Shown here: one piece after another, positions 1 to 38,043 of the stretch
Layout: every line of letters starts with the position of its first letter
Numbering within the stretch: the first letter of the stretch is position 1
IMG/VR virus record: IMGVR_UViG_3300032294_003070
Coordinates: 1 to 45,951 of that record
Strand: one strand, 5' to 3'
Length of the DNA: 45,951 bases
From: a virus
Program-made: the position numbers and the translations under genes
The notes under the pieces: model-generated
Databases searched by the model: none
Told to the model about the DNA's origin: nothing
Seen by the model: the letters and a program-made list of their open reading frames with translations, nothing else

Positions 1-798
1 ATTAACCAATCCTTAAGTCGTAATATACTCTATTTTTACTTATCACTCTTCGAGGTTGCCACCCCAATTAATCCTTGCGAGATTAGAGAACTTTCAAAAC
101 AATCGTATCGGGCTTGGGACCCTTTACGGCCATGAACAACTCATGACTAAGTAGTGACCTGTCTACCACGACTGACGAACACTTTTCCTTTATTGATTTA
201 TAAGTTGTTAAACCTTAATTAACAAAGTTGTGATTTGTGGATAATAGATGTAGCGGTCCGTCAAACCAGCCATCCCATCTTTTGAACGAGACGATACTGA
301 ACTACACCTTGAAGTCTCCCGACCTCCATACTTTAAGTCTACTTCATAACTCCTACCTTGGTAGGTGAAGAGTAAGGAGAACAACAGCACCACCTGTACG
401 AACCCATACCTTTCGGTTTTAAGTCTACTTTAATATTGAACTCCGTAATTGTATAGTTGGATGACCATACTTCTTACAACAGCTCTACGAGTTATTCTTA
501 TTGGTGTTCCCACCTCAACCAAACGACCCACATCGCTTGGTCACCTAACCACTTTCCCTAAAGTGTCACCCTCAATACTCAAGGTCAGATGATATCCCGC
601 TTGTCTACTCGAGCTCCGTTTCCGAAGCCGCAACCGTTCCAATCAAGAACGAGTCACTTTATACCACTTTCATGGTTTATTTTATGGACTATAGACCGCC
701 CAATATTTTTATTCAAAGAACTTTTCAAGAATGAAGAAAAGGGGAAACTTTACGACCAAGTAAACTCGGAACCTTTACTACCCCTTCTCTTCATTTGT
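1..798 (-). ncRNA. Large structured non-coding RNA candidate (GOLLD/ROOL-like); 3' end not defined
   Basis: About 800 nt with no credible protein in either strand: every frame is cut by stops. Read on the minus strand it is full of local hairpins: a 15-bp stem with one G-U pair opens the predicted transcript (730-744 with 781-795), followed by 550-565 (6 bp, AGGG loop), 519-540 (8 bp), 503-514 (GGAA tetraloop), 352-365 and 311-326 (6 bp, GGGA tetraloop). A Bacteroidota promoter (803-834) would start the RNA at about 798, three nt before the first stem. A tRNA lies just upstream on the same strand. Very large ornate RNAs next to tRNAs in phage genomes are the hallmark of the GOLLD and ROOL classes. 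The class assignment is inference; no terminator is visible before position 1, so the RNA may leave the window. Confidence 0.5.
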
Positions 799-802
799 CT
801 TA

Positions 803-834
803 CAAAGGTAAGAATGTTTTGGGAAACAATCAAA
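803..834 (-). promoter_or_regulatory. Bacteroidota-type promoter of the large RNA
   Basis: Minus strand: TTTG (834-831), 20-nt spacer, TACCTTTG (810-803). This matches TTTG-N20-TANNTTTG exactly. The predicted start is near 798, at the foot of the first hairpin. Confidence 0.65.
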
Positions 835-985
835 CTTTTTTTTGTAAGTTTTTTTAACAAGATAACTGAATTGGTTATTCTTCATTGAAGATGTGTTATT
901 CACCCTCAATCACCCCCCACTCCTAATGGGACAGGTTAACTTCATCTCGATGTTAAAGAACTCTCGGTCTTACCCGATTGTTTGT

Positions 986-1017: not shown

Positions 1018-1080
1018 TCTTTTTTTAAGAAAGGGAACCTCGATTTTATGACCGTAATCAACCTTTCTTGTTTTGTCTTA

Positions 1081-1112: not shown

Positions 1113-1150
1113 TCTATTGAAAGACTTTTTGTGAAATTACTTTCACTTTG

Positions 1151-1222
1151 TTGCGAAGGATGGATTCGAACCACCGACCTAAAGGTTATGAGCCTTCCGA
1201 GCTACCTCTGCTCTACCTCGCG
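1151..1222 (-). tRNA. Initiator-type tRNA-Met (anticodon CAT)
   Basis: Full cloverleaf on the minus strand, 72 nt without encoded CCA. The acceptor pairs at 1221-1216 with 1158-1153; the first pair is a C1-A72 mismatch (1222/1152), the hallmark of bacterial initiator tRNA. The D stem is GAGC/GCTC, the anticodon loop CTCATAA, the T loop TTCGAAT on a 5-bp stem, and the discriminator A is at 1151. The anticodon stem GAAGG/CCTTT has only two G-C pairs next to the loop, whereas canonical initiators have three. It sits just 5' of the tandem promoters and the large RNA. Confidence 0.9.
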
Positions 1223-1233
1223 ATATATCTTAA

Positions 1234-1304
1234 TGATTACAATCCCACTTTCCCCACGGTCACCTATCCACGTCATGCGCTGGTTGAACCAGCGGGTGTA
1301 ATCA
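1234..1304 (-). other. Unidentified tRNA-sized structured element
   Basis: A 71-nt element closed by a perfect 7-bp stem (TGATTAC with GTAATCA) and containing a CACC/GGTG stem stacked on a 6-bp CGCTGG/CCAGCG hairpin with a 5-nt loop. The size and closing stem recall a tRNA, and it lies 11 nt upstream of the initiator tRNA. No T-loop or anticodon arm can be drawn on either strand, so I do not call it a tRNA. It could be a processing element of the tRNA transcript or a decayed tRNA. Confidence 0.4.
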
Positions 1305-2067: not shown

Positions 2068-2415
2068 ATGAGAGTTAAAATTAATGATAATATTTTTAAT
2101 GTAAAAACTTTAGTTGATGAAAAGTCCCAATCAATTGGTATGATGGGTAAGAAATTTAATTCGACTTTCAACGGACTACTATTTTTAATGGGTGGAAAGA
2201 AACAATGTTTTTGGATGAAAAATTGTATCATTCCTCTCGACATAATCATAATAAAAAATAATGTTATCGTAAACATCCATTTTAATTGTCCACCTTGTAA
2301 TGAAGAACCATGTCCTTCTTATTGTGGTAGAGGTAATATTGTTTTAGAATTGATGGGTGGAAGTTGTGAGCACTTAAACATTCAGGCTGGTGATTCTGTC
2401 GAGTACATTTTCTAA
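2068..2415 (+). CDS. DUF192 family protein
   Basis: 115 aa. It shows the DUF192 signature: an early G-M-M segment (residues 26-28), then FWMKNCIIPLDIIII near residues 51-65, and a C-terminal VLELMGG...GD pattern with GD at about residues 108-109. The function of the family is unknown; cellular members are often exported, but no signal peptide is visible here. Four cysteines between residues 75 and 90 (CPPCNEEPCPSYC) are more than the family core needs and might bind metal. I chose MRVKIND because a longer reading would run through the divergent Nudix gene. The stop overlaps the convergent cobalamin adenosyltransferase gene by 4 nt. Confidence 0.85.
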   Translation: MRVKINDNIFNVKTLVDEKSQSIGMMGKKFNSTFNGLLFLMGGKKQCFWMKNCIIPLDIIIIKNNVIVNIHFNCPPCNEEPCPSYCGRGNIVLELMGGSCEHLNIQAGDSVEYIF

Positions 2416-2951
2416 TTTTTCCAAATAGTTTCTTTTACTTCCTCTTTGTGAGCAATAAATCTTGCCAAAACAAAAAAGTAATCACTAAGTCTATTAAGAT
2501 ACTTCGATATGGGATGAAGTTTGATAAAGTTATCCAAAACTTTACATTCTAAAACTTCTATTTCTGTTCTTCTCGCTATTGTTCTACAAATATGTGCTGT
2601 TGAAACTGCTCGACTACCTTTTGGTAAAATAAAGTTTTTTAATTCAGGTAATTCTTTGTTCATGATATCCATTGACTCTTCCAATGATTTAATATCCTCA
2701 TCTGTAACTTCAGTTAAATCAGTATCATTATCATTGATAATCATTGAACCAGCGTTGAATAGATTCCACTGAATAATTTCGAAGATTCCATTAACATCCA
2801 ATATCTCACTCCTTAGTAAACCTACGAATGAGTTTAGTTCATCCAATGAACCTACCGCCTTAATTTCTTGAATTGTTTTGGAGACCCTTCGTCCTGATAA
2901 CAAACTTGTTGTTCCGTCGTCCCCTTTTTTTGTGTATACTTTATTTGCCAT
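2412..2951 (-). CDS. Cob(I)alamin adenosyltransferase, PduO type
   Basis: 179 aa. The N-terminal ATP-binding motif TKKGDDGTTSLLSGRR (residues 7-22) is the PduO/MMAB signature; SLDELNS (35-41) and the later HICRTIARRTEIE helix match the conserved active-site helices. The enzyme transfers 5'-deoxyadenosyl from ATP to cob(I)alamin to make coenzyme B12. In a phage it could supply a B12-dependent ribonucleotide reductase, which is not in this window. I start at MANK rather than two codons earlier because a promoter-like TATATTTT with GTTG 20 nt upstream ends 4 nt before this ATG, as in the leaderless genes elsewhere here. Confidence 0.9.
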   Translation of the reverse strand: MANKVYTKKGDDGTTSLLSGRRVSKTIQEIKAVGSLDELNSFVGLLRSEILDVNGIFEIIQWNLFNAGSMIINDNDTDLTEVTDEDIKSLEESMDIMNKELPELKNFILPKGSRAVSTAHICRTIARRTEIEVLECKVLDNFIKLHPISKYLNRLSDYFFVLARFIAHKEEVKETIWKN

Positions 2952-2969
2952 ACACAAAATATATTAAAG

Positions 2970-4409
2970 TTATTTCGAACTTTCAACCGATTGTTTCTCG
3001 GATTGTATTTTTTCTTTCAACTTAGATTTGAAATCATTCGCAACCATCTTTGTGAACTTTACGTAAGGACTATCATCCGAGTTTGGGTCATATCGATAAT
3101 TCCCTTGAGGTGGTCTAGTACCTCGACCTAAATAACTTAATCCACCTATATTTGTAATACACTTATGCCCACCTGAGTTTGCCTGTATTAAATCCCAAGA
3201 GTTTACCATAATAGAATCTAATATTCTTTTTTCATCATCAGTCAGGTCTTTGAATGGTTTCTCCATCATATCCTTAACCCTTTTCAACACTTCCTCTCCA
3301 TTCGGTAAACCAATAAATTTACCACCATAAATTGCATCAAAGTCTTGGAATGTAAAACCAATACTTTCAGGTCCTACACTTGTTTCACTAATCCATTTTA
3401 TGGTTGAGAGAGGTATTTTCTTGTCTTTAAGTTTGTCTTCCCACTTGGATAAAACCTCTTGGGCAATTTCACCAAGGTTGACACCTTTAAGTTCCCTCTC
3501 CTTTTTGAACGGATTACACGACGCTTGTACCAAACCCATCGGCCATGCCATGATAAGAAAGTCTGCCTCAGGGTTATTTCTAAATGGGGTATACCTATCA
3601 TATGACCCAGGTTTGAACATACTGCCCCCGCCATATTGGTAAATAATATTATCACTAACTTCTGGGAAGTTCTTCATTTGTTCTGCATAATCTTCTGCGT
3701 TTTTTTGTAACACTTCAGGTTTTGGTGCCGTTGTCATCGTCATCCAATTCTTGATGTTGTTCAGTATTGAAAGTAATGATGGTTCTGAATCCATTACCAA
3801 CCCTTCCAAAAATCCTGGCTTGTTTTTGAATGCTAAAAGTAGTTTGTTAATTACCAAACCTAATAACATTTTATTTTTTTGTAGTGAATCTTCTTTGTCT
3901 ACTCTGTATATGTAATTGACAACTTGTTCAGGTGAGATATTATGTTTAGCAAAATCTGCAGAGTCAACGGTATTGATGAGTAAAACATCTGAAGTTGGGA
4001 ATAAATCTTTTGGGGAAACTATTTGAGAAAGGGTTTCAACGTTTGAACGAGCTCCTCTGAATTGTTTTGACGTTCCCTTCTCAACACCGACTTGTCTATC
4101 ATGGTGGTCAGTATGAATCTTGAACATTGGTTTACCATGTGCAAAGTCAACTAAAACTGGCATCGTATCTCCTGTCGCATCGTTTTTCTTGACAGCAAAT
4201 TCTTTGTCACCATATTGAATGACATGTGAACCAACAACCTGTATACCATTGTCCTCCAAGTATTTTTTCATGGCAATAGCGGTTGTTACCCCATCCAAAT
4301 CTTGATGGAAATAAATTTCAGCTTTGGGATATCTCTTCCTCAAAGCTGAAATGTCTCTTATACCCGTTTCTGTGATTAATTTTTTACGCACGATGTACAA
4401 AAAGTTCAA
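2970..4409 (-). CDS. DHH-superfamily phosphoesterase
   Basis: 479 aa. Motif I is HQDLDG (residues 35-40) and motif III is DHHD (101-104), with D88 as the likely motif II aspartate; together they form a two-metal phosphoesterase site. A C-terminal SGGHK near residues 423-427 resembles the GGGH of DHHA1 substrate-binding domains. The family includes RecJ exonuclease, nanoRNases and cyclic-dinucleotide phosphodiesterases. The roughly 300 residues between the motifs and DHHA1-like end are longer than in NrnA, so this is neither a clear RecJ nor a clear NrnA. The start overlaps the upstream gene by 26 nt. Possible roles are ssDNA degradation in recombination, or removal of short oligonucleotides or signalling nucleotides. 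Confidence 0.7.
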   Translation of the reverse strand: MNFLYIVRKKLITETGIRDISALRKRYPKAEIYFHQDLDGVTTAIAMKKYLEDNGIQVVGSHVIQYGDKEFAVKKNDATGDTMPVLVDFAHGKPMFKIHTDHHDRQVGVEKGTSKQFRGARSNVETLSQIVSPKDLFPTSDVLLINTVDSADFAKHNISPEQVVNYIYRVDKEDSLQKNKMLLGLVINKLLLAFKNKPGFLEGLVMDSEPSLLSILNNIKNWMTMTTAPKPEVLQKNAEDYAEQMKNFPEVSDNIIYQYGGGSMFKPGSYDRYTPFRNNPEADFLIMAWPMGLVQASCNPFKKERELKGVNLGEIAQEVLSKWEDKLKDKKIPLSTIKWISETSVGPESIGFTFQDFDAIYGGKFIGLPNGEEVLKRVKDMMEKPFKDLTDDEKRILDSIMVNSWDLIQANSGGHKCITNIGGLSYLGRGTRPPQGNYRYDPNSDDSPYVKFTKMVANDFKSKLKEKIQSEKQSVESSK

Positions 4410-13628: not shown

Positions 13629-14476
13629 TTAAATTTATAAACATATTGACTTCGGTTATTTCTGAACAAAAAAGATATCAGTTCTCTCCTGAAACACAGG
13701 AAAGATTGAAATCAGTTGTTGACAAATTATGGAATGATAGGAATAAGAAATACGTGAAGAAAACTAGAGTTGACTTCTTCCCTTTCAAGCTTGCAGATGG
13801 TACCGATGGTTTAGTCAAAGTTATTGTTAATCCGAGACTTCCTTATATTGGATTCATGGGAACTAACCCAAAAAAGTCTTTAGACCCCGCAGATATTTTC
13901 ATTGAAGTTAATCCGAAACATTATCAGTCAAAGAAAAATTTATACCTTACAATATATCACGAGATGATTCACGCATCTGACCCAACTCAAAGTCACGAAT
14001 GGAAGCCAAGTTATGAAGTAACTTACAATCCCAAAAAGGACGAAGAGTATTGGGGACATCCAATAGAGTTCTTTGCAATTACAAATGAGTTTCTTGAGGG
14101 TTTGGTGAATGAGTACACAAGAAGAGTTAACAGGACAAAAAACCCCGAAAATAAGTCCTTATTGTTGAAATCATTCAACAATATATTAGATTATTTTTCA
14201 AAAGGTGAAAAATTGAGTAAATTATCACAAGATGTTCTTTATAGAATAAATGACGAATATGTTAATAGTGATAAAATCTCAAACATGTTAGCAGATATTT
14301 CAACAGATTATCCAAATGTTTCTGAACTAATCCCTAATAAAGAAGAAATACCTTACTATCTACACTACATACTACTCATTAAAAAATATAACCCTGATAT
14401 TTGGAAAAGGTTTTTGACTATGTTATTTAAGACAAAAAATGAAATTGAAAATATTATAAATAAAAAAAGGGGTTAA
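13625..14476 (+). CDS. Second HExxH metallopeptidase-like protein
   Basis: 283 aa. HEMIHASD gives H112-E113-H116, and HPIEFFA places E148 as a likely third zinc ligand; [10 protein letters not shown] recalls the E-x-x-A of other phage zinc peptidases. The N-terminal 14 residues ([14 protein letters not shown]) end in I-S-E-Q, again like a T4-type processing site. It is coupled to the preceding metallopeptidase-like gene by a 4-nt overlap, but the two share little beyond motif and N-terminus, so they probably have different targets. The stop lies inside a bidirectional terminator shared with the first collagen-like fibre. Confidence 0.72.
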
Positions 14477-14489
14477 ATTAACCCCTTTT
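14465..14489. terminator. Bidirectional intrinsic terminator
   Basis: AAAAGGGGTTA (14465-14475), 3-nt loop, TAACCCCTTTT (14479-14489). It holds the stop codons of both convergent genes and gives T runs on both strands. Confidence 0.85.
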
Positions 14490-16596
14490 CTTTTGCTATT
14501 AATTCTAGTTTTTCTAATTTACTTAAACTGTTTTCAATTACTATAGATTGTTCTTTGATTGCCTCAATACAAAGTGCCACAATATCTTGATATTTAACAA
14601 TTAAATAGTTGGGTTCTTGCCCTACCACTACTTCAGGTAAAGCCACTTTTAACTCTTGAGCGATAAAACCAATGTCTCTTTTTTCAACATCCGTTTCACC
14701 ATCTTTAATCCAATAGAAACTTACCCCTCTAATTTTTTTAATTTTATGAATAGAATCTTTTAGTGGTTTTATCTCCTTTTTGAATCTGAAGTCAGAGGGT
14801 CCTGGAGCTCCTGTAGCTCCTTGAGCACCTTGTGGTCCTGTTCCTCCCATTCCTCCTTGTGGTCCTGATGCTCCTGGTCCCCCTGGTGCTCCTGTTGGTC
14901 CTCCTGCCCCCTGTGCACCTTGAGCACCTCCAGGTCCTGTTGGTCCTTGTGGTCCTGTAGCACCTCCTGGTCCTGTTGGTCCTGTTGCTCCTTGACCTCC
15001 TTTTGGTCCTTGTGGCCCTGCAGGTCCTTGGGCACCTTGAGCACCTCCTGGTCCTCCAGGTCCTTGGGCACCTTGAGCACCTCCAGGTCCTGTTGGTCCT
15101 GTTGGTCCTTGAGCACCCTTTGGTCCTTGTGGCCCTTGAGCACCTTGACCTCCTTGAGGACCTTGCGAACCCTGAGCACCTTGACCTCCTTGTGCCCCTT
15201 GACCTCCTTGAGCTCCTTGAGCACCTCCAGGTCCTGTTACCCCTTGACCTCCTTGGGCTCCTTGTGGACCCGCAGGTCCTTGTGAACCTGTAACACCTTG
15301 TGGTCCTGTCCCACCTTGAGCACCTTGACCTCCTTGACTACCTTGAGCACCTCCTGGTCCTGTTGGTCCTGTTGCACCTTTAGGACCTTGTGCACCTTGT
15401 GCTCCTGTTGGAGATGTACCTGTAGCACCCACAGCACCCGTAGGTCCTTGTGCTCCTTGTCCCCCTTGTGAACCTTGAGCACCTTGTCCCCCTTGTGAAC
15501 CTTGAGCACCTGTTGGTCCAGCACCTCCTTGTGAGCCCTGTGCTCCTGTGGCTCCTCCTCCCCCTTGTGAACCTTGGTTACCTGTTCCTCCTTGTGAGCC
15601 TTGAGCACCTGTGGCTCCCTGAGAACCTGTAGCACCTTGAGCACCTTGTCCTCCTTGGGGACCTTTTGGTCCTTGAGCACCTTGTCCTCCCTGAGCACCT
15701 TGGGCACCTTGACCTCCTGTAGTTCCTTGAGCACCTGTTGCACCTATTCCTCCTTGAGCACCTTGAGCACCTTGTCCTCCTTCGGCACCTTTCGGTCCTT
15801 GAGCACCTTGTCCTCCTTGTGCACCTTGGGCACCTTGACCTCCTGTAGTTCCTTGAGCACCTGTCGCACCTATTCCTCCTTGAGCACCTTGAGCACCTTG
15901 TCCTCCTTGGGGACCTTTTGGTCCTTGAGCACCTTGTCCTCCCTGAGCACCTTGGGCACCTTGACCTCCTGTAGTTCCTTGGGCACCTGTTGCACCTTGC
16001 CCTCCTTGAGAACCTTGCGCACCCTGTCCACCCTGTGAACCTTGAGAACCTGTATTACCTTGGGAACCTTGTCCTCCCTGAGCTCCTTGTCCTCCTTGAG
16101 CACCTTGTCCTCCCTGAGAACCCTGAGCTCCTTGTCCTCCCTGAGCACCTTGTCCTCCCTGAGCACCTTGTCCTCCTTGAGAACCCTGAGCACCTTGAGA
16201 ACCCTGAGCTCCCTGTCCTCCTTGAGAACCCTGAGCACCTTGTGCTCCTGTCGCACCTGATAATCCTTGAGCTCCCGTTGCACCCGTAAGTCCTTGAAGT
16301 CCTTGTGAACCTTGACCACCTTGAGGTCCTTGTGAACCTGGAGGTCCTGGGGGCTGAGGGTTCCCCAACCAACCACCAGGACCTATCAACCCAAAAGTAT
16401 TGTTACTAACACCTCCCGCATTCATCGATACACCCAATGTTAATGTAGGACTAGTTTGGTTGAATGATAGGTATGTCGTTGCTCCTCTCTTGAACTTGAT
16501 TGAACCACTTTCAATAACCATGGTTGTCACTGTGTCACCAGTGTCAATAAAATCAATCTTTCCCGATGCTGGGGTTATTATTATATCTTCAGCCAC
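14473..16596 (-). CDS. Collagen-like fibre protein with S74 chaperone domain (paralog 1)
   Basis: 707 aa in three parts. Residues 1-80 are a beta-rich head. Residues 84-600 are continuous Gly-X-Y triplets dominated by GAQ, GSQ, GGQ and GPQ. Residues 601-707 are a peptidase-S74-type intramolecular chaperone beginning SDFRFKKEI (S601-D602), with IGFIAQEL and LPEVV. In the family, the Ser-Asp site cuts the chaperone off after it trimerises the fibre. The likely product is a triple-helical side or whisker fibre of the virion. It overlaps the second paralog by 8 nt; the three fibres form one operon read from 21231 to 14473. Glutamine- and alanine-rich triplets instead of hydroxyproline-type ones are usual for bacterial collagens. 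Confidence 0.92.
14797..16347 (-). repeat. Collagen triplet repeat DNA, fibre 1
   Basis: About 170 Gly-X-Y codon triplets, much more GC-rich than the surroundings. Synonymous codons are mixed, so exact long DNA repeats are limited. Two blocks near 15600-15760 and 15780-15990 are nearly identical and mark recent internal duplication. Confidence 0.85.
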
Positions 16597-18799
16597 TTAT
16601 TAAATCTTTAAGTTTGTTTATTCTTTGATAAATTGAATCAATTATTTTTTGTTGTTCCTGTATTGAACCAAACCCAAGACTAACCATAGCCCCATATTCT
16701 ACAGATTTGAAACCATCCTCATCAGTGAAGACAACTTCAGGAACAATGTTTTCTATTTGCTGAGCAATTACACCGATTGACGGTCCCTTGAAGGCATCCA
16801 TTACCGCAATATTCTCATCGTCTTTAATTTTTGAATGGTCATGGTCCCAAATGAAACTAACACCTTCAATACCTTTTGTCTTATTATAAACATCATCAAT
16901 CTTTTTGATGTTGTCTTTCAACCTCCAATCAGACGGTGGTCCAATATTACCCTGAGCCCCCTGAGCACCTTGTGGACCTGTAGGTCCAGGTCCTCCCGCA
17001 GGACCTTGTGGACCTGGTCCTCCTGTTCCTCCAGTCCCTCCTTGGGCACCTGTTGCTCCACCTCCACCTTGTGGTCCCTGTGCACCTTGTGCACCTCCTG
17101 GTCCTCCTGGTCCCTGTGCACCTTGTGAACCCTGTACTCCTCCTCCGCCAGGACCTCCTTGTGCACCTTGTGGTCCTGTTCCACCAGTCCCTCCTTGTGC
17201 ACCTTGTGCTCCACCACCACCTGTACCTCCTTGTGCACCTTGTGAACCTGTAACACCTGTTGGTCCCTGTGCACCTTGTGTTGTACCTGCTGGTCCAGTT
17301 GCACCCTGAGCACCTTGTACTGATGACGCGGCTCCTGTATTACCCTGTGCACCTGTAACTCCTCCTCCACCTTGAGGTCCCGTTGGTCCTGTGGCACCTT
17401 GTGGTCCTGGGGTTCCTTGAGCACCTTGAGGTCCTGTTGCACCTACTGGTCCTGTGGCACCTACATTACCCTGAGCACCTGTAGCCCCTCCTCCTCCTTG
17501 AGCACCTTGGCTACCTAAAGCACCTTGAGCACCAGTGGAACCTTGGGCTCCTTGTCCTCCTTGTGGACCTGTTGGACCCGTGGGTCCTGTGGCTCCCTGA
17601 ACTGAACTTTGAGCACCTGTAGCTCCTTGAACAGAACTTTGTGCTCCAGTGGCACCCTGAGGTCCTGGTACACTACTTTGAGCACCTGTTGCTCCTGCCC
17701 CTCCTTGTGAACCTTGTGCACCTGTGGGACCTGTAACTGAACTTTGTGCCCCCGTTGCTCCTTGAGCACCCGTGGCACCTTGTGCACCTTGAGCCCCTGT
17801 TGACGCTCCTTGAGCACCTTGAGCACCTTGAGCTCCTGTATTACCTGTCGCACCTTGGGCACCTGTATTAGCACCTTGAGCACCTTGGGCTCCTTGAGGA
17901 CCTGTATTACCTGTCGCACCCTGTGCACCTGTATTAGCACCTTGAGCACCTTGGGCTCCTTGAGCACCTGTATTACCTGTCGCACCCTGAGCACCTGTAT
18001 TAGCACCTTGAGCTCCTTGAGCTCCTTGAGAACCTATATTACCTGTTGCACCCTGAGCACCTGTATTAGCTCCTTGAGCACCTTGGGCTCCTTGAGCACC
18101 TATATTACCTGTCGCACCCTGAGCACCTGTATTAGCACCTTGAGCACCTTGGGCTCCTTGAGCACCTGTATTTCCCGTCGCACCCTGAGCACCTGTGGTT
18201 CCTCCTTGAGCACCTGTTGCACCTTGTGTTCCTTGAGCACCTTGGTCACCTTGTGCACCTGTTGATGCACCTTGAGCACCTTGAGAACCTGTTGCTCCCT
18301 GAGCACCAACATCACCTTGAGCACCTGTTACTCCTCCTTGTGCCCCTGTGGAACCTTGTGCTCCTATATTTCCTTGAGCACCTGTATTTCCTGTGTTTCC
18401 TTGAGCACCTGTATTTCCTTGAGCACCTGTATTTCCTGTAGCTCCCGCGGCACCTTGAGAACCTGTTGGTCCTTGTTGTCCTGTATCACCTTGAGCACCC
18501 GTGGAACCTTTTGGTCCTTGCGAACCTTGTGCACCTTTTAGACCTTCTGTTGGTCCAATCCAATCTCCCGTAGAGTTAATCATAGCTACTCCACCAACAT
18601 ATAAAATACCTGATATTGTCGTACCACTTGATGAACCCACAAAGTCTCCCGAAATTACAGATGAACTTGGACTTGTAGATGATGAAAATGATATAGAACC
18701 ATCGTTAACATCTAGCGCCATTTGGGAACCGTCTTCCATCAGTATATATGGGTCGGTTATGCCTCCATTACCTTGGGGATATATAATTACATTAGCCAT
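16589..18799 (-). CDS. Collagen-like fibre protein with S74 chaperone domain (paralog 2)
   Basis: 736 aa. A Ser/Gly-rich beta head (1-86) ends in [10 protein letters not shown], a segment shared with paralog 3 ([10 protein letters not shown]). Gly-X-Y triplets run from about 89 to 620, and the S74-type domain starts at SDWRLKDNI (S623-D624) with [16 protein letters not shown]. Six 22-residue super-repeats near residues 203-334 each hold one four-residue GANT or GAST unit, which breaks the triplet register at regular spacing. The end is a helix, [10 protein letters not shown]. It overlaps paralog 1 by 8 nt and paralog 3 by 1 nt. Role as for paralog 1; different heads and chaperones suggest separate homotrimers. 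Confidence 0.92.
16940..18535 (-). repeat. Collagen triplet repeat DNA, fibre 2
   Basis: Gly-X-Y coding repeat with a 66-bp super-repeat (22 residues) at about 17798-18193, six copies, each with a GANT or GAST interruption. Confidence 0.85.
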
Positions 18800-21231
18800 T
18801 ATTTCAATTTATTTTCTAACTCGATTAATTGTTGTTCTATGTCTTCAATAAAGACCTGTTGTTCTTTAATACCTTCAACTAAAACAGCATTCAATTTAGG
18901 ATAATTTATTTTGTAATAACCATCTTGCATGATGGTAACAACCTCTGGGTAAAATTGTCTTATATTTTGAGCAATCAATCCGATTGAGTGAATTCTGTTT
19001 TGTTTATTATAATAGTTATATTGACTCTCATTCAAATTTTTATTCCAATCAAACTCAACAACATCGAATTTTAAGATAGACTTCAAACTTTCAGGTAATG
19101 TTTCAACACCTTGTTTCAATCTTTTATCTGAACAAAAAGAGTTACCATCCCAAAATCCATCTCCACCAACATAACCAAGTACACTATTACAGTTCATTTT
19201 GATATAACCAGGACCGATTAAACCCCAAGAAGTTCCACCTGCCTCACAGGAAGTAATATTGTCGTATAGATAAAGAGCACCACTAGGACATGTAAAATTT
19301 GAGTAAGCTGAGTAATTACTTGGGAAAAAACAAGCTTCGGAAGTACTGCCTCCCCAAGAAACTGAATTAAAATAACATGTAAAAGCTGCTGGTCCTGTGC
19401 TTCCTTGTGCTCCTTGTGCACCTTGTGCACCTCCTGGTCCTGTAGGTCCTTGTGGTCCTTGTGGTCCTTGTGGTCCTTGTGGTCCTGTTGGTCCTGTAGC
19501 ACCTTGTGGTCCTGTGTTTCCCGTTGGTCCTGGAGCACCCTGTGGTCCTGTTCCTCCTCCTGGTCCTGTAGCACCTTGAGCTCCTTGTGGTCCTGTCCCT
19601 CCTGTGGGTCCTGTAGCACCTGTAGCACCTGTTGGTCCTGTTGGTCCTGTAGCACCTTGTGGTCCTGTTCCTCCTGTTGGTCCTGGTGCCCCTGTGGCTC
19701 CCTGTGGTCCTGTTGGTCCTAATGCTCCTTGTGGTCCAGGTCCACCCGTAGGTCCCGTTGCACCTGTAGCCCCTTTTGGTCCTTGTGCACCTGTTGCACC
19801 TTGTGGTCCTTGTACTCCTTGTGGACCTACTGGTCCTTGTGGTCCTTGTGGTCCTGTTGGTCCTATAGCTCCCTGTGGACCTTTTGGTCCTTGTGGTCCT
19901 GTTGGACCTTGAGCTCCTGTTGCTCCTGCTCCACCTGTCCCTCCTGTAGCACCTTGCGGTCCTGTAATCCCTGTTGCACCTGCACTACCTTGAGCACCCG
20001 TGGGACCTGCTGGTCCTTGTGGTCCTTGTGGTCCTTGTGGTCCCGTCGGTCCTATGGCTCCAGTTGCTCCTGTTGGTCCCACAGCTCCTGTCGCACCTTT
20101 TGGTCCGATTGGTCCCACAGCTCCTGTTCCACCTTGGGAACCTTGAGCCCCTGTGGCACCAGTTGCTCCTGTTGGTCCAATAGCACCTGTTCCTCCCGTA
20201 GCACCTTGTGCACCTGTATTTCCTGTGGCTCCTTGAGCACCTGCATGACCTGTTGGTCCTGTTGCACCACCTGGTCCTGTTGCTCCTGTAGCTCCTTGAG
20301 CTCCTGTATGTCCCACAGCACCTTGAGCACCTTGAGGTCCTTGAGGTCCCGTAGCACCTTGAGCACCTGCGTGGCCCGTTGGTCCTGTGTCTCCTGTTGG
20401 TCCAGTTAGTCCTGTAGCTCCTTGAGCTCCTGTATGTCCCACAGCACCTTGAGCACCTTGAGGTCCTTGAGGTCCCGTAGCACCTTGTGCTCCTGCATGA
20501 CCTGTAGGTCCTGTGTCTCCTGTTGGTCCGATTGGACCTGTGGCTCCTTGAGCACCTGTATGACCTACAGCACCTTGAGCACCTTGAGGTCCTTGAGACC
20601 CCGTAGCTCCTTGTGGTCCTACACTACCCGTATTACCTGTTGCACCTTGTGCACCTGTATTACCCGTAGCACCTTGAGCACCTGCATTTCCTATATTACC
20701 TTGCGCACCTGTATTTCCTTGGCTACCTATCGAACCAGTTGGTCCGACTGCTCCTTGATTACCTACCGCACCTTGAGAACCTATTCCTCCCTGAGCACCT
20801 ACAGCACCTTGAGCACCTTGTGGACCTGTAGCACCTTGTGGTCCTTGTGGTCCAGGTCCTGCACCTTGTGCTCCTTGAGAACCTTGAGCTCCTACAGAAC
20901 CTTGTGCTCCTTGGGGACCCGTTGCACCTTGAGCTCCCTGCGCACCATCAAGCCCCAATGTTGGACCTACCCAATTATTAGTTGTGTCAATAACTTGTGT
21001 ACCACCCATCCTTAAAAAGGTACCAACGACAAACGCATTACCAGCCGTAACTAATGAGTCATTTGGACTGATAACTAATACGTTAGAGTATGTTGATGAA
21101 CTAAATTGTATAGTTGCTCCTGATTGAACCAGTAATTTAATACCTCCTGTATTAATGAAATCAATGAACGGAATTCGTGATGGTAATCTCGAAATCTCGT
21201 TACTTGGATATATTATGATGTTTTTAGCCAT
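18799..21231 (-). CDS. Collagen-like fibre protein with Cys-rich cap and S74 domain (paralog 3)
   Basis: 810 aa, first gene of the fibre operon. Residues 1-92 are a beta-type head ending [10 protein letters not shown]. Gly-X-Y triplets (96-616) are richer in GPT, GPQ and GAT than in the other two fibres. Residues 617-700 form a cap absent from the paralogs, with seven cysteines in total (FTCYFNS to NSFC) and aromatic residues, possibly a receptor-binding or lectin-like tip. S74 follows at SDKRLKQ (S701-D702), then IGLIAQNI and PEVV. The mature tip would be the Cys-rich cap after auto-cleavage. A GTATTTATAG box lies 20 nt upstream of the ATG. Confidence 0.92.
19384..20946 (-). repeat. Collagen triplet repeat DNA, fibre 3
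   Basis: Gly-X-Y coding repeat. A block of about 120 bp occurs at 20280-20410 and 20410-20540 ([20 protein letters not shown]-type units, three copies at protein level), showing unequal-crossover-type duplication. Confidence 0.85.
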
Positions 21232-26429: not shown

Positions 26430-27272
26430 TTAATAATTCAATATCAACAGCTCTTCACCCATATTTTGTTTGGTATTTTTTTTCGCAGCCGCCGCTTTTG
26501 CAAACAACTTACGTTCCCAACGATACTCATCCTCAGGAAACCATTCGTGTAATAACGGAAAATCGTAATAAGATAGACTGAACTTACCTTCCATACCTTT
26601 GATAGTGTTTGCTAACCTTTCATGGTCATCTCGGTCGAAATCATGATTATTATAATAGTTCTCAGTCTTCCAATAAGGTGGGTCTAAATAAACATATGTA
26701 GATTTTGAATCATACTTAGTGATGACATCCGCAAAATCCATATTTTCAACATGGGTAATTTTATCAAAATGTGCAATCCATGCAGGTTTTGATAATTTGT
26801 CCCTAAACGAAAGGTATTTGGACCTGTATTTTCCCTTCAAATCAATAAACGATGAAGTCTCAGGCTTACTACCCGAAAAGACCTGTGTGAGGACGTATGC
26901 GTATTTGGCAGCTACCTCATAGTCAGGGTAGTTTATCGTAAAACCCGATGAGAATAATTCAGTTTGATATTCCACGAATCTATTCCTATAACTTATGTCA
27001 GTAACAGGAGTCCCCACCTGTTGAACAGGGATGGAATCCAAAGCTCTTTGTAGTTCTGTAGGATTCTGAACACATCTGAAAAGATTGTAATTTAGTGGGT
27101 TAAAGTCATTGTATACGACTTTTTTAAGATTTGGGTATCTTTCCAAATCCATGTTAAAGAAACACCAAAACATTCCTCCGAATGTCTCAACATATGTTTC
27201 CATTTCTTGTGAGTAAAATGGAACTATCCATTTACCAATACGACTTTTACCACCAATATAACTCATTGCCAT
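26430..27272 (-). CDS. dam: DNA adenine methylase (Dam/D12 class)
   Basis: 280 aa, usual Dam length. The N-terminal YIGGKSRIGKWI (residues 5-16) is the D12-class motif X, ETFGGMFWCFF (29-39) is motif I for AdoMet, and DPPY (197-200) is the catalytic motif IV. VVYNDFN (52-58) supplies the acidic ribose contact. It methylates N6 of adenine in a short site, probably protecting phage DNA. MSYIGG, two codons in, is an alternative start. It lies 4 nt behind the homing endonuclease gene. A second, beta-class methyltransferase is at 6329-7177. Confidence 0.9.
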   Translation of the reverse strand: MAMSYIGGKSRIGKWIVPFYSQEMETYVETFGGMFWCFFNMDLERYPNLKKVVYNDFNPLNYNLFRCVQNPTELQRALDSIPVQQVGTPVTDISYRNRFVEYQTELFSSGFTINYPDYEVAAKYAYVLTQVFSGSKPETSSFIDLKGKYRSKYLSFRDKLSKPAWIAHFDKITHVENMDFADVITKYDSKSTYVYLDPPYWKTENYYNNHDFDRDDHERLANTIKGMEGKFSLSYYDFPLLHEWFPEDEYRWERKLFAKAAAAKKNTKQNMGEELLILNY

Positions 27273-27275
27273 ATA

Positions 27276-27959
27276 TTATTTTTTTCTATATTTTTTTTTA
27301 TCATTAATTATTTTAATCACCTCATCAAATATAATTTTTTTCCTTGTAAGAAACAAATTGGTTTCGGAATAAAATCCTTGATATATTTTTTCTATGTCTG
27401 TCATTGCTCCCCACCCAATGTACTTGAATTCTTTATCTTTGGGGCCATATAATTTATTAATATTAGTACCAAATAGTACACTCATTCTTTCATTTAATTT
27501 ATTTAACATTTCCAATGAACCTCCAACTATTCTTAAATCACCTCGTTTTGTACCATCTCTTTTATCTACATTTGTTCTTATACAACCATCACCATCAAAA
27601 TATCCTCTTAAAAAATGTTTTTCTAATTTTTCATCAATATTAGGATATTTCAACGTAAAGGTTTTATTCGGTGTTACCCCTAACTTAATCAAGTCAATAA
27701 CTATTTTTTTACCTGAAAATCCAACTTCACACATATCTCTTTGACCATGAAACCAAATATCCGTTTCACCATTTACATATTTGATTAAAGATTCTAATAT
27801 GTGACTATCTTTAGTATGTAATTTCAACATTAGTTTATATCTATATTTTTCATCGTCGTAAATTACCGACCCATCAGCATAAATAAACCCCAAAAAATAC
27901 GCCTTATCTTCCGTATCTATTTGTTCGAAATAATCCTCATTATAATTCTTTTTTTTCAT
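27276..27959 (-). CDS. LAGLIDADG homing endonuclease
   Basis: 227 aa. Two dodecapeptide motifs are present: AYFLGFIYADG (residues 20-30) and FLRGYFDGDG (116-125), each ending in the metal-binding Asp, so it should act as a monomer with two active sites. The spacing and basic loops (NVDKRDGTKRGDLRI) fit the family. It is free-standing, with no intron or intein signs in its neighbours, and sits next to the dam gene. Its start overlaps by 20 nt a small gene with a ribbon-helix-helix look. Confidence 0.9.
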   Translation of the reverse strand: MKKKNYNEDYFEQIDTEDKAYFLGFIYADGSVIYDDEKYRYKLMLKLHTKDSHILESLIKYVNGETDIWFHGQRDMCEVGFSGKKIVIDLIKLGVTPNKTFTLKYPNIDEKLEKHFLRGYFDGDGCIRTNVDKRDGTKRGDLRIVGGSLEMLNKLNERMSVLFGTNINKLYGPKDKEFKYIGWGAMTDIEKIYQGFYSETNLFLTRKKIIFDEVIKIINDKKKYRKK

Positions 27960-37245: not shown

Positions 37246-38043
37246 TTACATATAATCGAACAGACTGCTCGTCTCATTTCGTAACTTTCGGAGAGCTTTT
37301 TCTTTGATTTGTCGAACCCTTTCTTTGGTTAAATCGAAGTCATTACCAATATCTTCGAGGGTTCTTGTCGAACCTGATAACCCAAAATAGTCTTGAATAA
37401 TTATCTTTTCTCTTTCGTCCAACACATCCAACATACCCAATAACTTATCCTTAAGAGTTTGTTCTGTAGATAAACCAGCGTCAGCAAGTTCAGCGTTTGG
37501 ATTACTCAACATGTCCATTAACGTATCACCATCTTCATTTAGAGGGTTCTCCAAGTTAATAACTTGTGGAAGATTGACAAACTTATCAGGTAATTCTGTA
37601 CCCGTAGCATCCAAATCTTTCTTTGCCTTTTGAAGTTCTTGAACAACGTTTACTGGTAGACGGATGGTTCTAGCATTCTCATTAAGAGATTGTAGAATGG
37701 ATTGACGAACCCACCAAACCGCATAAGATATGAATCTTAATTTTTTTGACCAATCGAAGTTTTCGATTGCTTTTAATAAACCATAGTTACCTTCAGCAAT
37801 CAAGTCAGGTAAATCCAACCCTTGATTCTGATATTGTTTACTAACGGTTATAACAAACCTGAGGTTTCCCTCAACCAATTCTTTTTGGATTTCATGTTTC
37901 TCTGATAATGTTAATTTACCTGACAGCATCTTTTCTGCCAGTTCTCTTTCCCTTTCGGGAGTCATCACCTTAATTTTACGAATGTCTTTGAGATAGGAAT
38001 TAATTTCTTCTTGATTAATAGGAATTGCAGATTTTTCTTTCAT
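37246..38043 (-). CDS. RpoD-like sigma-70 factor with reduced region 3
   Basis: 265 aa, without region 1.1, as in Bacteroidota RpoD. Region 1.2 covers about residues 10-45; region 2 is full (NLRFVITVSKQYQNQGLDLPDLIAEGN, then RFISYAVWWVRQSILQ, 59-128), including the aromatic -10-melting residues. Region 4 is full (LLGMLDVLDEREKIII and LTKERVRQIKEKALRKLR, 200-256). Between them region 3 is shrunken: after RLPVNVVQEL only about 60 residues remain and the usual helical region 3.1 is not recognisable. It would redirect host RNA polymerase to phage promoters, perhaps late ones. A terminator follows. Confidence 0.93.
   Translation of the reverse strand: MKEKSAIPINQEEINSYLKDIRKIKVMTPERERELAEKMLSGKLTLSEKHEIQKELVEGNLRFVITVSKQYQNQGLDLPDLIAEGNYGLLKAIENFDWSKKLRFISYAVWWVRQSILQSLNENARTIRLPVNVVQELQKAKKDLDATGTELPDKFVNLPQVINLENPLNEDGDTLMDMLSNPNAELADAGLSTEQTLKDKLLGMLDVLDEREKIIIQDYFGLSGSTRTLEDIGNDFDLTKERVRQIKEKALRKLRNETSSLFDYM

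Follow-up and report, generated by a model that had tools for sequence, protein, structure and literature searches.

Introduction

To our knowledge, GOLLD is one of two natural RNAs that form large hollow cages. Many of its members exceed 800 nt in total length. The member env-38, which lies downstream of a Met-tRNA, forms a 14-mer cage in which the 5' and 3' regions are separate domains that a single A-minor contact joins between chains; its half-shells meet partly via loop L21a, whose inner dinucleotide swaps between GC and CG in evolution (PMC12286853). GOLLD is also bound by ribosomes in pull-downs (PMC12286853). In a Lactobacillus brevis prophage, GOLLD is reported to accumulate in lytic infection and to be dispensable for prophage production (PMC7567579). 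ROOL is likewise a giant phage RNA found near tRNAs, but its cage is an octamer and its secondary structure is different. The abundant ~800-nt non-coding RNA of ICP1 is also long, phage-borne and free of ORFs; however, it has no tRNA nearby and is not known to be a GOLLD (PMC7567579).

The window analyzed here is an IMG/VR virus record of 45,951 bases, taken in full. We find that the minus strand of positions 1-798 is almost certainly a truncated GOLLD RNA gene of a large phage. Like env-38, this RNA is phage-borne and downstream of tRNA-Met, and it has the GOLLD 3' domain, a variable linker after the first 3'-domain hairpin and a self-complementary L21a-like loop; the 5' domains are alike by length (~412 nt here versus residues 1-420). 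Unlike env-38, it occupies a phage locus of Bacteroidota type, in which it has a TAnnTTTG promoter of its own, a boxA, a leader hairpin that is optional, and a terminator; its linker contains no tRNA.

Results

To identify the RNA, the whole window was scanned with 4227 Rfam families, which gave two matches above cut-off, a tRNA at 1222-1151 and GOLLD (RF02032) at 309-1 on the minus strand; no other family exceeded its cut-off in the window. The GOLLD match scores 223 bits against a cut-off of 150 (E 1.8e-63) with the Rfam covariance model and spans model positions 1-313 of 416, where the contig end cuts the 3' side. About 103 model positions and the terminator thus lie beyond the contig end, a truncation that the first-pass annotation had not noticed. 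The cmsearch that it had proposed for the minus strand is therefore clearly positive for GOLLD, and the GOLLD part of its "GOLLD/ROOL-like" label holds; the ROOL part does not, because a restricted sensitive Rfam search of 1-1500 found no ROOL match up to E = 10 and ruled out ROOL or another Rfam family. It had also put the RNA at ~800 nt. A giant structured RNA it is, but the ~800 nt run from the promoter to the contig end, and complete relatives measure ~0.9 kb from promoter to terminator, so that the size is better given as about 900 nt. Because the last quarter of the 3' domain is missing from the window copy, we assume from the relatives that the gene is intact. The features of the gene, in order of transcription, are:

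803..834, minus strand: Bacteroidota-type promoter, recognized by sequence, with TTTG at 834-831, 20 nt, and TACCTTTG at 810-803
730..795, minus strand: leader hairpin of 15 bp in the promoter-boxA interval (z = -4.9), optional in relatives
713..721, minus strand: boxA-like GTTCTTTGA, then AAUAAAAAUAUUG, bordering the GOLLD fold on its 5' side
about 310..710, minus strand: GOLLD 5' domain (cap domain), from covarying pairs in a 27-sequence alignment
603..696, minus strand: pseudoknot 696-691/608-603 of the first-hairpin loop with a downstream junction; double changes in 3/6 pairs, 98.8% paired
237..531, minus strand: loop-linker helix 531-528/240-237; double changes in 4/4 pairs, 100% paired
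1..309, minus strand: GOLLD 3' domain (ring domain of the env-38 cage), from the RF02032 match, with nested and crossing helices showing double changes
181..242, minus strand: variable A/U-rich linker between the outer 3'-domain hairpin and the rest, from its position in the RF02032 alignment
174..262, minus strand: pseudoknot 262-256/180-174 within the 3' domain; double changes in 6/7 pairs, 99.6% paired
71..83, minus strand: hairpin 83-71 with loop CGCAAG, a positional match to the L21a half-shell contact (bridge B8) of env-38

Two other explanations of 1-798 were weighed against this assignment. The Rfam model describes only the 3' half of GOLLD, and the 5' half is divergent and has no Rfam model, which is what gives some appeal to the idea, raised in the first-pass annotation, of a new giant ornate RNA class separate from GOLLD and ROOL. 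However, the 3' half is unambiguous GOLLD, the RF02032 match refutes a separate class, and GOLLD as described includes a divergent 5' domain of about such length (PMC12286853); we thus regard a new class as highly improbable, and the RNA is an ordinary GOLLD member. Still less credible is a decayed protein gene or pseudogene, for which one could cite the short ORFs scattered over several frames of 1-798, the longest (99 aa) on the opposite strand. None is a convincing gene, and both the Rfam match and compensatory changes in RNA helices fall on the other, minus strand; a protein or pseudogene is therefore ruled out, and the stretch is protein-free as first described.

To establish the fold, we aligned the 5' domain and the first 3'-domain hairpin of 27 distinct relatives. 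The 5' domain, which measures ~412 nt from boxA to where the 3' model begins, is less conserved than the 3' domain. The resulting fold has 132 pairs in 21 helices, with 97.4% of the alignment cells paired and compensatory changes (both sides changed) in 83 of the 132 pairs, a count of events that are not independent because the relatives share ancestry. None of 500 shuffles reached such pairing and covariation, and pairing dropped to 37-45% when the partner columns were slid by 1-3. The covariation test proposed earlier thus yields overwhelming compensatory changes; the strand of 1-803 alone also folds better than 20 of 20 shuffles (z = -4.2).

Nearly all of the stems first read from the single sequence are real and conserved. 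The stem at 519-540, given as 8 bp, is real and has 10 bp (541-532/527-518), with double changes in 7 of 10 pairs; the 6-bp stem with a GGGA loop at 311-326 (4/6 pairs doubly changed) and the 4-bp hairpin with a GGAA loop at 503-514 (3/4) were correctly placed, and the stem at 352-365 belongs to 373-363/358-349 (9/10). The supposed hairpin at 550-565 overlaps two real stems (591-583/550-542 and 575-570/563-557) but is absent from the consensus as a separate element. The "opening stem" at 730-795 is an exact 15-bp helix (795-781/744-730), but it stands outside the GOLLD fold as a leader hairpin. An assignment of this helix to GOLLD P1 was rejected, since boxA comes after it and relatives lack it or have another hairpin instead.

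Helices outside the nested fold were sought by a covariation scan and then followed in a 32-sequence full-length alignment. The three crossing helices found, two pseudoknots and the loop-linker helix, reach 99.4% pairing taken together, and 13 of their 17 pairs are doubly changed. The loop-linker helix joins the loop of the 10-bp 5'-domain hairpin with the first bases of the linker, which in the relatives is ~60 nt long, A/U-rich, variable in length and poorly alignable, and which holds no tRNA in the window. Five loops occur with five complementary partners (GUGG/CCAC, ACGG/CCGU, GCGG/CCGC, CUGA/UCAG and GUAG/CUAC). Set against the text description of env-38, the three covarying helices are apparently a new detail.

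The L21a-like loop reads CGCAAG in 28, UGCGAG in 1 and GUCGAA in 3 of the 32 sequences, proportions that are biased towards CGCAAG because part of the set was picked by a pattern including it; the assignment to L21a uses an Rfam-to-env-38 numbering estimated from total lengths. In the three GUCGAA sequences (L043, L326 and L327) the palindromic GC has become CG. This swap favours pairing between copies without proving it.

Relatives were collected with a neighbouring protein of 479 aa, which led to 80 close loci, and with a GOLLD 3'-domain pattern, which led to 38. Among 48 related or pattern-selected virus records, 44 carry exactly one GOLLD each, all above cut-off; complete relatives mostly exceed 300 bits with RF02032, and the GOLLD-bearing contigs of the phage group reach 321 kb. 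GOLLD lies 1.2-3.5 kb downstream of the 479-aa protein gene, on the same strand, in 39 of the 80 protein-selected loci. Every locus with at least 4 kb of downstream sequence has it (39/39), the other 41 ending too early to tell, and GOLLD thus appears to be a constant part of this phage group. The 479-aa protein has no Pfam or PHROGs match. A blastn query with the 5' domain and tRNA region also reached LR745206 and LR756502, uncultured, unannotated phages of 635 and 642 kb, in which the Rfam model confirmed GOLLD, whereas blastn with the 3' domain gave no match in the annotated phage collection, indicating that sequence similarity alone would miss GOLLD. It was absent from the three single Flavobacteriia genomes examined. 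The host of the phage is probably a Bacteroidota bacterium.

Many phage contigs, among them the window and L008, L021, L034, L063, L067, L068 and L080, end within GOLLD. The probable reason is that assembly graphs break where strains living together share so conserved a sequence, and GOLLD may as a result be under-counted in metagenomes.

The transcription signals around GOLLD were examined in the same relatives. TTTG and TAnnTTTG separated by ~20 nt are the promoter form of Bacteroidota, and the promoter at 803-834, although correctly located before, is of this type rather than the "consensus promoter" it was called. Counting in the 50 distinct GOLLD loci with sequence, 395-620 nt upstream of the 3' domain, we found TAnnTTTG in 43 (versus 14.6% of shuffles) and boxA with at most one mismatch in 49 (versus 1.8% of shuffles), the boxA count being one of related loci rather than of independent events. 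Between the two signals, some relatives have another hairpin type or no hairpin; in the hairpin-free leaders (L104, L111, L127 and L137) boxA follows the promoter by ~20 nt, so that the leader hairpin is optional. At the other end, an intrinsic terminator lies within 90 nt of the GOLLD 3' end in 34 of 39 relatives under a strict rule, and two of the five that this rule misses (L100 and L127) clearly have a terminator by eye. With a promoter and boxA before it and a terminator after it, GOLLD forms a stand-alone unit of ~0.9 kb, apparently a new detail. We infer from these signals that it is transcribed from the promoter near 800.

The phage also encodes, at 37246-38043 (minus strand), a sigma-70-like factor with regions 1.2, 2 and 4. 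This factor may read the TAnnTTTG promoters.

In E. coli, boxA of the rRNA leader recruits NusB and S10 and blocks Rho-dependent termination; the consensus given for gamma-proteobacteria is GYTCTTTAANA, from a survey that left out non-coding RNAs (PMC5725501). To obtain the form of the probable host, we took 102 leaders of 16S genes, picked by pattern, from Flavobacteriia and relatives. Examples such as AAAGTTCTTTGAAAATATTGAAG and AGTTCTTTGAAGGTATTGAAAAG, ~75-125 nt before 16S, are the same module as the GOLLD leader AAGTTCTTTGAATAAAAATATTGGGC, and under one fixed rule the boxA-AUAUUG module occurs in 31 of the 102 leaders versus 0.2% of shuffles. As in the rRNA leader, GUUCUUUGA followed by AUAUUG stands between a promoter and a long structured untranslated RNA; the difference is that it here precedes phage non-coding RNAs rather than rRNA. 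In 10 phage loci, boxA with TAnnTTTG at most 130 nt upstream is found mostly in the non-coding island, where it recurs before two further units, RNA-B and RNA-A/tRNA.

The features of this island, and the protein gene upstream of it, are:

2970..4409, minus strand: highly conserved 479-aa protein containing HQDLDG and DHH motifs; throughout the phage group it lies upstream of GOLLD
1235..1303, minus strand: RNA-A, a ~70-nt conserved motif just 5' of tRNA-Met, recognized by its core pattern in IMG/VR
1150..1222, minus strand: tRNA-Met (CAT), initiator-like (ARAGORN; Rfam 60.6 bits)
1027..1069, minus strand: small hairpin AAGAAAGG...CCCUUUCUU, preceded by a promoter of its own at 1112-1081
about 840..961 (core 907..961), minus strand: RNA-B, with boxA GTTCTTTAA at 961-953 and its own promoter at 1017-986

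Read 5' to 3' on the minus strand, the island runs from a promoter (1402-1395) through a hairpin (1380-1335), RNA-A (1303-1235) and tRNA-Met (1222-1150) to a promoter (1112-1081) with the hairpin 1069-1027, a further promoter (1017-986), boxA (961-953) with RNA-B, and GOLLD. The promoters 834-803, 1017-986 and 1112-1081 precede non-coding units; at 1402-1395 there is TAnnTTTG only. The tRNA had been called an initiator, and its C1.A72 mismatch fits this, although of the three anticodon-stem pairs that are usually G-C one is A-U. A tRNA-Met or a tRNA array lies near GOLLD in many relatives.

RNA-A and RNA-B, neither of which has an Rfam match, are apparently two further conserved non-coding units around tRNA-Met and a new detail. 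The RNA-A core, ACAACCAGNGCAUGACNUGGAU, is nearly invariant and was found in 48 IMG/VR contigs with a strict pattern and 57 with a relaxed one, the latter giving no match in 84,980 bacterial and archaeal genomes. Besides the window, the motif was recorded in L149-L203; in other phages RNA-A sits between tRNA-Asp and tRNA-Met of tRNA arrays. Most positions of its alignment are invariant, a C/G position pair of the core becomes A/U in several phages, and its single-sequence folding energy is no better than that of shuffles (z = -0.3). RNA-B, which lies between tRNA-Met and GOLLD in many relatives, has a conserved hairpin core (CCUGUCC...GGGGGGU; 32 IMG/VR matches) and shows only two short hairpins, which carry a few double changes.

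The hairpin at 1069-1027 has the internal part GGUUGA...GUAAAAUCGAGGUUCC; in some relatives the element looks like a terminator after the tRNA, in others (L038 and L061) like the GOLLD leader hairpin. The hairpin at 1380-1335 (minus strand) is terminator-like and is followed by ATTTTTT; a TACCTTTG promoter immediately precedes it, and RNA-A lies further downstream. It is possibly an attenuator or a very short RNA.

Discussion

These observations suggest the following course of GOLLD expression. RNA polymerase would start at the TTTG/TAnnTTTG promoter near 800, pass the optional leader hairpin and copy the rRNA-like boxA, which would most likely recruit the host NusB/S10 antitermination complex; we propose that the long untranslated RNA is thereby finished and helped to fold. 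An intrinsic terminator would then free a transcript of ~0.9 kb, which would fold into a 5' cap and a 3' ring domain tied by the covarying helices and most likely build a hollow 14-mer cage like GOLLD env-38. That the GOLLD boxA acts in antitermination via the host Nus complex seems to us somewhat the better reading of the motif. Family membership and the loop swap make assembly into a hollow cage likely.

Each of these two steps has a rival. The boxA-like motif immediately adjoins the fold on its 5' side, ~412 nt from the start of the 3' model, where env-38 begins. It could thus belong to the GOLLD fold itself, or be a site at which the mature 5' end is processed, rather than an antitermination signal; moreover, under the rule used, boxA appears in no more than about one in three of the 16S leaders sampled, which weakens the case for antitermination. 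We nevertheless consider a role in folding or processing unlikely, since an insert of ~60 nt separates boxA from the fold in many relatives and since its recurrence before RNA-B and RNA-A/tRNA is what is expected of a transcription signal. The RNA could also act as a monomer, sponge or regulator, with cages arising only in vitro, an idea that gains from the dispensability of the prophage GOLLD (PMC7567579) and from the fact that no in vivo cage is reported in the cited GOLLD literature. However, the inter-chain contact loop keeps a palindromic dinucleotide through the GC to CG swap, a pattern difficult to account for unless copies pair with each other, and we consider a purely monomeric RNA unlikely.

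What a cage would do for the phage is more speculative. GOLLD is constantly linked to tRNA genes and is reported to bind ribosomes (PMC12286853), and in view of this our best guess is that the cage may help to handle tRNAs or ribosomes late in infection, although we hold this with considerable doubt. Slightly better founded, yet still tentative, is the picture of a dedicated non-coding RNA island whose units (RNA-A with tRNA-Met, RNA-B and GOLLD) each have a host-type promoter and an rRNA-type boxA, by which the phages may borrow host rRNA antitermination for the bulk production of cage RNA. In this picture RNA-A and RNA-B would be two undescribed classes acting together with GOLLD, and cap and ring would be held to each other by the loop-linker helix. 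This phage group provides a deep, syntenic GOLLD family with complete transcription units and strong covariation. In it, boxA offers a concrete, testable reason for how phages could produce untranslated RNAs of this length, and the conserved RNAs next to GOLLD are candidates for its partners.

Several other genes of the window were recorded in passing. A cobalamin adenosyltransferase (PF01923, E 3.4e-48) is encoded at 2412-2957 (minus strand), near a NUDIX hydrolase at 1634-2053, and a DNA methyltransferase at 26430-27959 (minus strand) has a homing-type endonuclease gene directly upstream. Three consecutive collagen-like proteins of 700-810 aa with G-X-Y repeats, encoded at 14473-21231 (minus strand), are probably tail fibres.
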